Shown one piece after another: positions 2,078-7,920 of a stretch of 41,332 nucleotides of DNA. The position numbers and the translations under genes were made by a program. The notes below the pieces were generated by a model. The model searched no databases. It was not told the DNA's origin and worked only from the letters and a program-made list of their open reading frames with translations. The stretch comes from Bacteroidales bacterium (GTDB lineage: Bacteria > Bacteroidota > Bacteroidia > Bacteroidales > Dysgonomonadaceae). The stretch is from contig JAAZCL010000374.1 of the NCBI GenBank assembly GCA_012513315.1, forward strand, positions 1 through 41,332. The letters are read 5' to 3'. The first letter of the stretch is position 1, and the number at the start of each line of letters is the position of its first letter.

Positions 2078-3508
2078 GTGCGAAGACAAATATTGATAGT
2101 AGAGGATGATAGTACTTTTGGAGCTATGTTACTAAAATGGTTCGAAAGGAATGGGTTTACGGCAACATTATGTAATGGTTTGATGTCGGCACAGAATGTA
2201 TTATCAGATAAAACAACCTTTGATTTAATTCTTTCAGACTTAAGACTTACGGATGGTGACGGTATTATGCTTTTATCTTGGTTGAAGAAAAAGCAAATTA
2301 CTACACCCGTTATAATTATGACAGGGTATGGTGAAGTGAAGACAGCTGTATCAGCAATTAAACTAGGTGCGTTTGATTTCTTAGAAAAACCAATAAATCC
2401 TTCAATACTTACAAAAAAGATTCAATCGGTTTTTGATCAAAATAAATCTGCTGAAGAATTCTCTATTTCTTTAAAGAACAAGAAAGCAGTAAACATAAAC
2501 TACAAAGATAATCCTAAGATTGTAGAAGGTACCAGCCCTTTGTATGAGCAGATGTATTCTTTTATAGATTTAGTTGCACCTACTCAAATGGCCGTTATGA
2601 TCATTGGAGAAAGTGGTACAGGGAAGGAGCATGTTGCTCATATGATACATAGTAGGAGTAATAGAGGCAAGGGTCCTTATATTGCAGTAGATTGTGGTAG
2701 TTTATCAACTGAACTTGCGCCGAGTGAGCTTTTTGGTCATAAGAAAGGATCTTTCACTTCTGCTATAGATGATAAAAATGGCTTTTTCTGGGAAGCAAAT
2801 GGAGGCACCCTGTTTTTAGATGAAGTAGGGAACCTTCCTTATGGTGTACAAACTCAAATGTTACGTTCTTTACAAGAGAAAAAAATAAGACCTATAGGTA
2901 CATCAAACGATATTGAGGTAGATGTAAGAATTATAACAGCTACTAATGAAAATCTTGAACAAGCGATATCTCATGGTAAATTTAGAGAGGATTTATACCA
3001 TAGGTTAAATGAGTTTCTGATAAAGGTACCTGCATTGAGAGATTGTATTGAAGATATTTCTTTGTATGCCCATCATTTTATGGAGGAAGCAAGTAGTGAA
3101 CTAGAGAAGGATGTGAAATATATATCTTCAGAAGTGTTAAGTCTCCTTAAAAATTATAGTTGGCCGGGCAACTTGAGAGAATTACGCAATGTTGTAAGAC
3201 GGTCTGTTTTATTTTCTACAGGAGATACCATTACTATTGCTGGCTTTCCTAATCTATCAGAATTCAACTCTGAGTTGTCGAATAATAATTTAGATATTTC
3301 AGGAATAAAATCAAATTTCTTTGGTGCTGATTTAGAAGTCAATAATAGGAGTAACCATGCTTTATATAATAATCCTGAAGATGAAAAAGATAAGATTTTA
3401 AAAGCACTACACAAATCTAACGGTAATAAAACAAGAGCTGCAAAACTTCTAAATATAGATAGGAAGACATTATACAATAAGATTCATTTATACAATATCG
3501 AATTATAA
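2078..3508 (+). CDS. sigma54-dependent response regulator (REC-AAA+-Fis HTH, NtrC family)
   Basis: REC (ILIVEDD, LILSDLRL, FLEKPI), Walker A GESGTGKE, GAFTGA-type loop (GSFTSA), C-terminal Fis-like HTH (NKTRAAKLLNIDRKTLYNKI). GTG start. Confidence 0.93.
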   Translation: MRRQILIVEDDSTFGAMLLKWFERNGFTATLCNGLMSAQNVLSDKTTFDLILSDLRLTDGDGIMLLSWLKKKQITTPVIIMTGYGEVKTAVSAIKLGAFDFLEKPINPSILTKKIQSVFDQNKSAEEFSISLKNKKAVNINYKDNPKIVEGTSPLYEQMYSFIDLVAPTQMAVMIIGESGTGKEHVAHMIHSRSNRGKGPYIAVDCGSLSTELAPSELFGHKKGSFTSAIDDKNGFFWEANGGTLFLDEVGNLPYGVQTQMLRSLQEKKIRPIGTSNDIEVDVRIITATNENLEQAISHGKFREDLYHRLNEFLIKVPALRDCIEDISLYAHHFMEEASSELEKDVKYISSEVLSLLKNYSWPGNLRELRNVVRRSVLFSTGDTITIAGFPNLSEFNSELSNNNLDISGIKSNFFGADLEVNNRSNHALYNNPEDEKDKILKALHKSNGNKTRAAKLLNIDRKTLYNKIHLYNIEL

Positions 3509-6004
3509 GTAATCGGTTTTTATATTTTCAGAAAATCTCTTTATTTCTGAGATAGACTTTGTAATATCTTTTTTCCAATCAGGATACAATGACTCGTTAT
3601 TTCCTCTTAGTTTATCCATCTTAATAAGATTAGTAGTTAGGTGGGAAGCGCCTAGCTGACTAAGGAGTGGATGTATTTTGTGGCAGATATGCTGTGCTTC
3701 AATAAATTTACCCTCTTTTACAAGCTTGGATAGGATGTCTGTGTCTTCTGCTGTTGACTCCACAAAATTCAATAGAATTTCTTTTATCGATACAGTGTCT
3801 TCACCAAACATGGAAAACAGTTGTGGAAATCGTTCTTCTAATGATATTAATGATCCATTGTTTAATTGAGAAACATTAATTATAGCTTTCTTATCTTTGA
3901 TACTATCATCTGTTTCATTCTTTATATTTATGTAATCAGAGTTTAGTATGTCTATTAACATGCTCATTTTAATTGGTTTACTTATAAGTCCATTGAAACC
4001 CTCCATAACTGTTTTTTTGTTATTATATTCGTCATTGGCAGTCATTAGCCATACTGGGATTTCTTTATTGATTTTTCTTATTTCATTTAATATTTCAGTG
4101 CCACTAATATCTACCAACTGCATATCAGTAAACACAATATCAAAATCAGAGACTAAACGGATGAATCCTTTTATATCGCGTGAATTATTGCACAATTTTA
4201 TTTTAAAGCCTTTTTGTTTTAGAAACTCCTTTATAAGTTTTCCAAGAGGAATATCATCTTCAAAAATAAGTACTTTGTTGTATTTCCGTTCATTATCTAA
4301 TATATTATATTTCGATAAAGGCTCATCTGGAATAAAATCTTTAATCTGCTCTATTGGGAGGTTTATGATTACCTGAGTTCCCTTATTTTTTTCAGAGGTA
4401 AGTTTAATTTCACCATTCAATGTTTCGGTTAACCCTTTAGTAACATACAAACCAAAACCACTGCCTTCAGCTTTTAAAGGATTCGGTGTTCGTGAAAAGG
4501 GCTTAAATATTTTAGACTGATCATCTAACTCAATTCCAACACCTGTATCAGTCACTTTTAAAACAATGTTGTTATTATTGCTTTGTTTTAATTCAACTTT
4601 TACGCTTCCGTTTATTGTATACTTTACTGAGTTCGAGATTATATTTGTAAAAATCTGTTTAAGCACTGTATAGTCTGTCTCGATATAAAAAGGGGTTGAT
4701 GTTGAGGTTATGAATTCTAATTCAATGTTTTTGTCATTAATAAATGGGCGAAACATATTTAAAATATCTTCTATTAGTTCTATAAGATTAAAACTGCTTT
4801 TTTGTAATACAGCTGTTTTCTGCTCAAGTCGAGAAAACTCTAGCAGGTTAGATAGCATACTCAAAATATGTTGACCAGAATTAAGAGCCGATTTAATTTG
4901 TTTTTTTCTTGTATGATCTTTAACTTCTGAGTCCCAAATCTCCATATATCCCATTATAGAACTTAAAGGAGTTTTTATATCGTGTGAAACAGATAAGAGT
5001 AATTTATGCCGACTTTCTATAAGATTTTCAGTCAAATGCTTCTCTTTAGATAATTCAGTTCTTGCGGTTTTTCCTTTTTCAAGGTCATTTGCAATAAATA
5101 AAGTTATAATAAGAATCAATACTATTGAGATTGCACCCACCGTAATGGCAAAAGTGAATATTTTTTGTGTCAACATCTCACTATTTTCAGTGCCTATTCT
5201 ACTTGTTTGTATTGCTTCATTATAAAACTGAGATATTAACTGTGATATATGTAAAGATATACTTTGTTCAGCAAGCACAAGCTCTCTAACTTGTCTTTCT
5301 ATGCGCTGTATCTGTGATGAATAGGTCTTAGTAGCTTCCGCTGTTATACCTTTCAAGTCTTTATACATAAGAGTGTCTACTCTTGAAGCAGCCCTCTCTT
5401 TTTGTTCTGTATGGGTTATACTAATTACTGTGTCTGGTTCAAATTTAGGATCGAATAGTTGCGATAACCTACTCCAGAAATCTTTCCGTTGTTTATTAAC
5501 AATAGTAGTGTCACTGTTCATCGTAACCACTACGCTATCCTGAATTATCGGTTCAATAGTTTCTATTTTCCTGTCTAATTCAATTAAAGGACTCTCAGAC
5601 CTCAGTTGAATTAATAACCTTTTTACAATTTGATTTTTCTCTAGCAACAGTGAATCAATATCCTCAAGGATAATTGCTTGTTCTTTATCGGGAGAGCTGT
5701 TTTTTATTATCTCTATTTGTTCATTTATATCTTGGGATATAGAATCGTACTGTTGCTGGTAAATTCTTCTTGGGGAAATTAGATAATTGTTTAATAAATC
5801 TTGTACTTGTTGAATTGATGTGATTAATCGATTGGTATATGCGAGTATCCTGTAGGAGTTATCCATCTCTTCTCTTTGTTTATCTATGCTTTTCTTAAGA
5901 CTAGTTGAGTAAATAAACAGTCCTGCAAAAAATAGAATCACAACAAGAAAAATAAGTCCAATTTTAATTGTTATCCTTTGTTCCGGAGATTTTATTTTGT
6001 TCAT
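3503..6004 (-). CDS. Hybrid sensor histidine kinase with receiver and Hpt domains
   Basis: Two TM segments flanking an extracytoplasmic region; HisKA SVSHDIKTPLSSIMGYM, HATPase GSGFGLYVTKGL, REC VLIFEDD...IVFTDMQL, Hpt AQHICHKIHPLLSQLGA. Confidence 0.93.
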   Translation of the reverse strand: MNKIKSPEQRITIKIGLIFLVVILFFAGLFIYSTSLKKSIDKQREEMDNSYRILAYTNRLITSIQQVQDLLNNYLISPRRIYQQQYDSISQDINEQIEIIKNSSPDKEQAIILEDIDSLLLEKNQIVKRLLIQLRSESPLIELDRKIETIEPIIQDSVVVTMNSDTTIVNKQRKDFWSRLSQLFDPKFEPDTVISITHTEQKERAASRVDTLMYKDLKGITAEATKTYSSQIQRIERQVRELVLAEQSISLHISQLISQFYNEAIQTSRIGTENSEMLTQKIFTFAITVGAISIVLILIITLFIANDLEKGKTARTELSKEKHLTENLIESRHKLLLSVSHDIKTPLSSIMGYMEIWDSEVKDHTRKKQIKSALNSGQHILSMLSNLLEFSRLEQKTAVLQKSSFNLIELIEDILNMFRPFINDKNIELEFITSTSTPFYIETDYTVLKQIFTNIISNSVKYTINGSVKVELKQSNNNNIVLKVTDTGVGIELDDQSKIFKPFSRTPNPLKAEGSGFGLYVTKGLTETLNGEIKLTSEKNKGTQVIINLPIEQIKDFIPDEPLSKYNILDNERKYNKVLIFEDDIPLGKLIKEFLKQKGFKIKLCNNSRDIKGFIRLVSDFDIVFTDMQLVDISGTEILNEIRKINKEIPVWLMTANDEYNNKKTVMEGFNGLISKPIKMSMLIDILNSDYINIKNETDDSIKDKKAIINVSQLNNGSLISLEERFPQLFSMFGEDTVSIKEILLNFVESTAEDTDILSKLVKEGKFIEAQHICHKIHPLLSQLGASHLTTNLIKMDKLRGNNESLYPDWKKDITKSISEIKRFSENIKTDYL

Positions 6005-6106
6005 AAATGTCCGTTGGTAATTAGCACCTTAATTAATAATTCAAATATACAGTAAATATTATTAAATGCCTATAGTTATAGAATCCTTTATAAAGTAACA
6101 GGATTT

Positions 6107-6144
6107 TGTGGATTTTGACATCAGTACTGTAGAATACATCCACA
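6107..6144. promoter_or_regulatory. Nested dyad, candidate activator/enhancer site
   Basis: TGTGGAT-N8-CAGTACTG-N8-ATCCACA; the outer 7-bp arms and the inner 8-bp palindrome share the same axis (between 6125 and 6126). Confidence 0.5.
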
Positions 6145-6215
6145 GTTTTCCATACTATTTCTACAACTCTAGATAATGCAAGATTTTAGTTTAGTGATTT
6201 AACACGCACATACAC

Positions 6216-6231
6216 AGGGATAAAAGATGCA
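6216..6231 (+). promoter_or_regulatory. Candidate sigma54 -24/-12 promoter
   Basis: aGGgataaaagatGCa: GG-N10-GC core, 7 of 12 specified positions of TGGCACG-N4-TTGCA. I found no perfect TAnnTTTG box between here and the start codon. Confidence 0.35.
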
Positions 6232-6330
6232 GTTGACGAAATAGCTTAACTTTAGTATGATAATTGTGTACTATATGTCAGACGAAGCGTCGTCAAAAAC
6301 TATTATGGAAATTATAAAAGTTTTATTATT

Positions 6331-7023
6331 ATGAAAAAAATGATTTTATCAATTGCAGTTATTGCAGGAATGTTTTTAATGACCAACCTGAATGTTGCAA
6401 CCGCAAGCGAAAAACCTTCTATATCTATTGTAACAGAAGATGATGGGTTTGTTGAAGTAAGGCTTCAAGATTTAAATGAGAATATTCAGGCATCTATCAA
6501 CGCACTTACTAGTGAGTATGATGTTCAGACATTAAAATATAACGAAGAAAAGAAACTTACAAAAGTTGTACTAATCAAGAAAGACGATCAGTCAACCAAA
6601 AAAGTGTATTTTAATGAAAACGGCGAAAAAATAGAAAAAGACAATGACGCCAACCAGAATGTTGAAAGAGAATCTATTCAACAAATTGAGCAGATACAAC
6701 AACCTCCATTTGCAGTATTAGATGATCCAAATCAAAATGACGGTTTTGTGGAAGTGAAGCTTGAAGACTTGAATGAAAATGTACAATCGGCTATTCGCGA
6801 AATAGGTAATACATATGATATTTCGACTATTACTTATAGCAGTGACAAGAAAATCACTAAAGTAATAAGCAAGAACAAGGCCGATCAGACTGAGAAAGTA
6901 TTTAAATTCGATGACGAAGGCAAAGAATTACAACATAAAGCCAAAGACAAAGAATTTGAAAAAGCTCAAGAGCAAAGAGAAGAACAAATTGAAAATATTG
7001 AAACACAATTACCATTATGGTAA
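6331..7023 (+). CDS. Secreted protein with two PepSY-like repeats
   Basis: N-terminal signal peptide; internal duplication DGFVEVRLQDLNENIQASI.../DGFVEVKLEDLNENVQSAI...; family assignment from remembered motif pattern. Confidence 0.75.
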   Translation: MKKMILSIAVIAGMFLMTNLNVATASEKPSISIVTEDDGFVEVRLQDLNENIQASINALTSEYDVQTLKYNEEKKLTKVVLIKKDDQSTKKVYFNENGEKIEKDNDANQNVERESIQQIEQIQQPPFAVLDDPNQNDGFVEVKLEDLNENVQSAIREIGNTYDISTITYSSDKKITKVISKNKADQTEKVFKFDDEGKELQHKAKDKEFEKAQEQREEQIENIETQLPLW

Positions 7024-7104
7024 TAATTGACGCAAACTACACTATTGCACCTCTATTTTTATCCTGGTCAATTTAGTCTACTTTTAAAGACCTGAGATAG
7101 TACA

Positions 7105-7147
7105 ACTGCCCTCTTAAATGTGATAATTAAGAGGGCAGTATTTTTTA
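7105..7147 (+). terminator. Intrinsic terminator between convergent genes
   Basis: actgccctcttaa-atgtgataa-ttaagagggcagt, perfect 13-bp stem followed by attttttat. Confidence 0.9.
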
Positions 7148-7149
7148 TA

Positions 7150-7920
7150 TTAAGAGTTCCAGATTCTCCAAGCTTCGATAGCTTGAAGCTCAAGCATTTC
7201 TTTCCCGTTTTTTATCATAGCCTCCTGTTCTCTCCCTTTTCTCAAGAAAAGAGTTTCTTCAGGATTATATACTAAATCGTAAAGTAAATGATCATCAGTT
7301 AGCATAGAATAAGGTATACCAGGACAGTTTTCTATATCCGGATAAGTTCCAAGTGGGGTAGTATTAACAATTAGTTTCCTATCAGCCATAATATCCGATG
7401 TCAACTCATTATAGCTAATTCTCCCTTCACCCTTGGTACGTGATACATAGATCCAATCAATACCCATGCTTGTAAGAGCATATGCAATTGCTTTAGATGC
7501 ACCACCAGTGCCTAGTATCAATGCCTTTTTATGCACTTCGGGATTAATAAGAGGCAACAAAGATTTCTTAAATCCTATATAATCTGTATTATAACCAGTA
7601 AGTTCATAAAAGTACATATCACCCTTAAGTCTCTTTATTTTAATAGTGTTTACAGCACCAATCTTTTCTGCTTCTGGCGACAATGTATGAAGAAATGGAA
7701 TAACCTTCTCTTTGTATGGAATTGTTACATTTAACCCCCTTAAGTATTGATTGAAAAGGATTACTCTTCTAATCTCTAAAATGTCCTCTATTTCAAAATT
7801 CAGATATTCAGCATCAATCTCTTCCCGATTGAATTTTTCGGTAAAAAACTTAGCCGAGAATGAATGAGCCAGTGGGTAACCGATTAATCCATAACAGTCC
7901 ATATCCCTATTTTTCTGCAA
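7150..7920 (-). CDS. aroE: Shikimate dehydrogenase
   Basis: YGLIGYPLAHSFSAKFF N-terminus, LNVTIPYKEKVIPFL, GTGGASKAIAYAL, NTTPLGTYPD. Confidence 0.93.
   Translation of the reverse strand: MQKNRDMDCYGLIGYPLAHSFSAKFFTEKFNREEIDAEYLNFEIEDILEIRRVILFNQYLRGLNVTIPYKEKVIPFLHTLSPEAEKIGAVNTIKIKRLKGDMYFYELTGYNTDYIGFKKSLLPLINPEVHKKALILGTGGASKAIAYALTSMGIDWIYVSRTKGEGRISYNELTSDIMADRKLIVNTTPLGTYPDIENCPGIPYSMLTDDHLLYDLVYNPEETLFLRKGREQEAMIKNGKEMLELQAIEAWRIWNS

Follow-up and report, generated by a model that had tools for sequence, protein, structure and literature searches.

Hybrid kinase, HPt and sigma54 regulator are linked to a conserved RNA output in the LuxO-Qrr system of Vibrio, and CpxR, the regulator of the CpxAR system, is not known to be a sigma54 activator. 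CpxP and CpxQ are a two-component-induced periplasmic protein and an sRNA carried on one transcript (PMC4817254), while in E. coli the sigma54 two-component pair ZraSR controls the gene for the periplasmic protein ZraP, within a very small local regulon (PMC7657598). The DUF2874/PepSY-like periplasmic proteins of Bacteroides have a signal peptide, one to several repeats and a BLIP-like fold, and are thought to be inhibitors (PMC2954215). Among the papers that we searched, none describes the enhancers of two-component sigma54 activators in Bacteroidales, and none a module that joins such an array to its regulator and an exported protein.

The locus analyzed here lies in a 41,332-nt stretch of Bacteroidales DNA ("the window") and combines features of these systems. 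It shares with ZraSR-ZraP an NtrC-type regulator (REG), a promoter of predicted sigma54 type, a linked periplasmic-protein gene (PEP) and a very small local regulon, but differs in its hybrid kinase with a receiver and probable HPt, its targets (PepSY-fold or acidic repeat proteins), its upstream activating sequence (UAS) and its conserved 3' RNA element. By analogy, ZraSR-ZraP appears to be the closest functional counterpart; for PEP itself kinship with ZraP finds no support, as it has no credible Pfam match and its structural model matches PepSY-like structures. As in CpxAR-CpxP/CpxQ, the predicted mRNA of a periplasmic protein ends in a conserved, terminator-ended segment, although the activator here is of the sigma54 type and the RNA is a candidate. 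Unlike LuxO-Qrr, the transcript is also protein-coding, and the array and lineage are different. PEP resembles the Bacteroides DUF2874 proteins in its signal peptide, repeats and modeled BLIP-like fold, but without a Pfam sequence match.

Locus, half-site array and promoter

REG comprises receiver, sigma54-activating AAA+ and Fis-type HTH domains (Pfam), with orthologs in 30 of 37 same-genus genomes, the window's included. Its GAFTGA loop reads GSFTSA, as in most orthologs (the remainder have GSFTTA or GAFTSA), which we take to be a conservative variant. The kinase gene is convergent with REG, and PEP is divergent from the kinase gene. The closest named relative of the genome is Fermentimonas sp. 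NTP30 (87% in the kinase), which places it in the Dysgonomonadaceae. The kinase has HisKA, HATPase and receiver domains; two hydrophobic segments can be read in its N-terminal sequence, and its HPt match (PF01627) is sub-threshold (E 0.024). RpoN was found in the genome. A 23S rRNA gene ends, and a 5S rRNA gene lies, within positions 1-544 of the window, just upstream of the module. Coordinates are given in Table 1.

Table 1. Features of the kinase-REG-PEP locus, in window coordinates.
Feature	Position	Strand	Basis
REG, NtrC-type response regulator	2078..3508	+	Pfam PF00072, PF00158, PF25601, PF02954
Hybrid histidine kinase, membrane, C-terminal receiver, probable HPt	3503..6004	-	Pfam PF00512, PF02518, PF00072
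Possible housekeeping -7 box of kinase gene, TATATTTG	6042..6049	-	Kept in intergenic sequences of orthologs; inference
UAS half-site 1, TGTGGAT	6107..6113	+	Ortholog comparison
UAS half-site 2, TGTAGAA, left arm of strongest dyad	6128..6134	+	Ortholog comparison
UAS half-site 3, ATCCACA, right arm of strongest dyad	6138..6144	+	Ortholog comparison
UAS half-site 4, TTCCATA, displaced outward by one base compared with most relatives	6148..6154	+	Ortholog comparison
UAS half-site 5, TTCTACA	6159..6165	+	Ortholog comparison
Conserved block between array and promoter, TAAnnnnCnnATAnnCAG	6200..6217	+	Alignment, most orthologs
Sigma54-type promoter, TTTAGTATGATAATTGTG (-24 TAGTAT, -12 TTGT)	6251..6268	+	Conserved in orthologs; best score in window
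Predicted transcription start (+1 near 6279) with 5' hairpin GACGA-AGCG-TCGTC	6279..6294	+	Compensatory stems in relatives
PEP, exported protein, two PepSY-like (DUF2874-fold) repeats	6331..7023	+	Structural model match
Nearly invariant 23-nt 3' element, AACTACACTATTGCACCTCTATT	7035..7057	+	Ortholog comparison
Intrinsic terminator, CTGCCCTCTTAA/TTAAGAGGGCAG and T run	7106..7147	+	Covarying, compensatory change in 4 of 10 pairs

A preliminary description had pointed to a dyad upstream of PEP as the site of the regulator. This dyad (TGTGGATTTTGACATCAGTACTGTAGAATACATCCACA, 6107-6144, symmetric at 13 of 19 positions) is located as claimed, and a scan for TGTGGAT-N24-ATCCACA finds it as the only exact copy within the window. 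In the ortholog alignment its outer arms are conserved and its central CAGTACTG is not; the dyad pairs half-site 1 with half-site 3, and the conserved upstream site turns out to be a larger element of five TGTGGAA/TTCCACA half-sites (6107-6165) in ~10-bp helical phase. In orthologs this array reads TGTGGAA, N14, TGTGGAA-N3-TTCCACA, N2, TTCCACA, N4, TTCCACA (offsets 0, 21, 31, 40 and 51), the 17-bp dyad TGTGGAA-N3-TTCCACA being its strongest unit. The window's copy is among the more degenerate, keeping all five half-sites with substitutions and with one extra base ahead of half-site 4; at a few orthologous loci there is a shift of 1 nt, or half-site 5 is degenerate. All 24 readable same-genus loci examined have the array in register ahead of this gene, and a matrix from orthologous loci other than the window and its sister gives 18.5 at position 6105 (maximum in 100 random windows, 12.2). 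Conservation thus argues that the dyad is functional, and the distance of the dyad sites from the promoter falls within the ~80-150 bp expected of NtrC-type enhancers. The conserved block between array and promoter is perhaps the site of a DNA-bending protein.

The promoter is not where it was initially placed. The GG-N10-GC sequence at 6217-6230 is present, but it is not conserved, is lost in the sister genome and occurs at chance frequency (the window has 121 copies, and 0.95 would be expected in the PEP-kinase intergenic region); by promoter score it ranks ~21,000th in the window, and we rejected it. The conserved element is instead the one at 6251, with a score of 17.3 (next best in 41 kb, 9.7), which moves the predicted +1 from near 6242 to near 6279. 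Its genus consensus, TTTkGYAYG-NN-ATTTG[AT], retains the -24/-12 geometry and, in each element, the second G, but neither the first G nor the -12 C; in the window the -24 element has no canonical GG (it reads TAG) and the -12 element no C. The groES gene of Bacteroides thetaiotaomicron is reported to be sigma54-dependent (PMC12316311), and as an internal control the groES promoter in the window's genus reads TTTGGCACAGAATTCGCA, with a -24 matching that of the 6251 promoter, while the -12 C of groES promoters is variable in other Bacteroidales families. At orthologous loci of other families the -24/-12 elements are canonical or nearly so (TTTGGCAC-N5-TTG), with textbook promoters following the array at L231 (TTGGCACGACGATTGTA), L236 (TTTGGCACGGAGATTGCAT), L233 (TATGGCATATAGATTGCAA) and L252 (TTTGGCACGCTGATTGCAT). 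The array core is 76-122 bp from the -24 element at most loci, 177 bp at L236 and ~107 bp in the window.

The predicted start falls two bases ahead of a 5' hairpin whose stem varies by species (GACGA/TCGTC, GGCGA/TCGCC, GACAAT/ATTGTC, GATGATTG/CAATCATC, GACGT/ACGTC), with no clear form at four or five loci. These compensatory changes provide independent support for the start site.

The exported protein and the conserved 3' region

PEP has no credible sequence match in Pfam, including DUF2874 (PF11396), or among PDB sequences. Its earlier designation as PepSY-like holds for the modeled fold and finds no counterpart in Pfam. Each repeat is modeled as a helix and three strands (pLDDT ~90), and Foldseek matches the model to DUF2874/PepSY-like periplasmic proteins (3U1W, E 4e-5; 4HBR, 4K61, 4IPB, 3DUE, 3DB7); six of the top 11 matches are DUF2874-type entries, the match being local, with a global TM-score of ~0.2, kept low by the uncertain placement of the repeats. 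The model thus points to a PepSY-like (DUF2874), BLIP-like fold. The number of repeats varies by species (one, two or more), and targets in other families are short exported proteins with acidic or lysine-rich repeats, and the output is therefore better seen as a class of proteins than as a single family. At L251 (G202:C9) the target consists of several near-identical repeats of SLAFVQEPEKKDSTENKTENK and appears to be an expanding exported repeat protein.

The region that follows is conserved. AACTACACTATCGCACCTCTATA occurs after PEP, with few changes, at every readable same-genus locus; among 31 sequences the 3' element takes 13 forms, with a mean pairwise identity of 0.89, and it is single-copy at that level of similarity. 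It was not found in five same-genus genomes without REG (G004, G012, G019, G020, G030), and G032 has a match with 3 mismatches. In G022 and G023 only remnants of PEP are left and the array, promoter and 3' element are kept (both are drafts, and assembly error is possible); the loci at which the element is kept without PEP are L032 and L053. Its persistence in two PEP-deleted genomes suggests that an RNA effector may be a further product of the module, and the element may be a 3' UTR-borne RNA effector or a regulatory element. Roughly two thirds of the sequences can form a strong stem around it, which is absent from the window's own clade. Rfam gave no credible match over the 3' region, and a search for trans base-pairing targets of the 16-nt core of the element gave no recurrent complementary site. 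We rejected a small 3' ORF (NYTIAPLY frame): although its substitutions look codon-like, a start codon is missing at several loci, and at L031 the frame is immediately preceded by a stop. In one genus of another family (f109; L228, L231, L242), a conserved 3' UTR stretch, CGTTCTTATTTTT-TATCTGTTTTAGTGAAGATGATG, follows variable repeat ORFs and is perhaps a counterpart of the 3' element.

Distribution of the array and alternative readings

An array model built from sequence alone (R1) gives a single strong match per genome in 26 same-genus genomes, each time at the PEP/kinase locus. Same-genus genomes without REG have no strong match except G028, where PEP and the array lie on a contig without REG; G019 has a 26-bp partial match, and in neither genome was the regulator contig found. 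Across 295 Bacteroidales genomes, 23 have an array match (E ≤ 1e-3), and 21 of these 23 have a REG ortholog (E ≤ 1e-100) compared with 67 of the 295 overall (Fisher p ~3e-13); G147 and G252 have an array-like match without one. In 46 of the 67 regulator-bearing genomes R1 has no match, so either spacing or motif differs there, or the array was missed.

In at least nine families (f1, f12, f30, f59, f60, f78, f101, f105, f109) the array or its core is found within a few kb of REG, often right after the REG stop codon; the array-REG linkage thus outlasts changes in gene order. Outside the window's family a sigma54 promoter usually follows the array at a distance of ~75-180 bp, with a small exported protein after it. 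By these sequence features the same switch recurs, with differing exported proteins, in at least nine Bacteroidales families. Individual loci vary. L229 (G066:C42, minus strand, ~5941-6800) carries two tandem units, each with an array, a sigma54 promoter and a small exported ORF, and the two ORFs have diverged. At L236 (G294:C23, minus strand, past 5948), the array and a textbook promoter, TTTGGCACGGAGATTGCA, are followed by a terminator-like hairpin with no evident small ORF between them, and the output is possibly RNA only. At L260 (G325:C19, ~7000-7300), the regulator gene itself comes directly after an array core and a sigma54 promoter, which suggests autoregulation there. At L243 (G201:C3, ~6005-6062), an array-like match distant from the regulator lies upstream of another exported protein, a possible second target.

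Three other readings of the array were weighed against this distribution. The half-sites could be DnaA boxes (TTATNCACA-like) that mark an origin or a DnaA-controlled promoter: TTATCCACA and TTTTCCACA are similar to half-sites, and ATCCACA of the window fits the box core. All the genomes have DnaA, yet the array is missing from same-genus genomes without REG and tracks REG in other families, a co-occurrence (genus and 295 genomes) at odds with boxes present regardless of REG; it is also palindromic and fixed in position relative to a sigma54-type promoter, and we regard the DnaA reading as very improbable. That some other DNA-binding protein binds the array and co-occurs with REG by chance is a little less remote, and still quite unlikely. 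Binding by REG is a prediction, and two genomes have the array-like match without a REG ortholog, but array and REG stay physically linked in at least nine families despite changed gene order, and a Fis-type HTH dimer would fit a dyad of 17 bp whose half-sites are spaced 10 bp apart.

The strongest of the three, though we consider it unlikely as well, is that the array serves chiefly to control the divergent kinase gene, as a form of autoregulation, and that PEP is incidental. The array sits between the kinase and PEP genes, G022 and G023 keep it though PEP is deleted, and the regulator gene itself is preceded by an array core and sigma54 promoter at L260. These two genomes also retain the PEP-side promoter and 3' element, however, and both this sigma54-type promoter and the array-PEP distance are conserved; elsewhere the array lies downstream of REG and ahead of small exported genes.

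The proposed module and its implications

We consider it highly probable that 6107-6165 is the enhancer of REG, driving the sigma54-type promoter of the PEP transcript within one local module. The idea that kinase, regulator and exported target form a unit in which the regulator activates PEP is thereby upheld from the preliminary description: the array is locus-specific, it tracks REG across families, and RpoN is present. Weighing against it are the noncanonical -24/-12 element of the window's genus, the GSFTSA loop, the 46 regulator-bearing genomes without an R1 match and the degenerate state of the window's own array. In the proposed mechanism, the kinase would phosphorylate REG, probably through its own receiver and HPt, and dimers or higher oligomers of REG would bind the phased TGTGGAA/TTCCACA half-sites, which would act as the upstream activating sequence of this adjacent NtrC-type regulator. 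Bound REG would then remodel sigma54-RNA polymerase at 6251-6268, making transcription RpoN-dependent. The transcript would start near 6279 and comprise the 5' hairpin, the exported PepSY-fold protein, the 23-nt element and the terminator. With one array per genome in the genus, the circuit would be local and would probably serve in sensing the cell envelope, and the exported protein could be an effector or a feedback partner of the kinase. REG very probably switches on both an exported-protein gene and a conserved RNA tail.

A broader reading, which we put forward tentatively and at somewhat less than even chances, is that a Bacteroidales-wide sigma54 envelope-signaling family, equipped with an enhancer code of its own, drives the expression of rapidly evolving exported proteins, and that in the Dysgonomonadaceae the transcript also yields a conserved 3'-end small RNA. 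The small RNA would be the more constrained output, because deletion of the protein gene has left the array, promoter and 23-nt element in place. What is gained is a readable enhancer/promoter code, at least nine families that serve as natural replicates, small exported proteins as an output class, and an RNA candidate; the code, replicates and outputs together make the circuit directly testable in culturable relatives.
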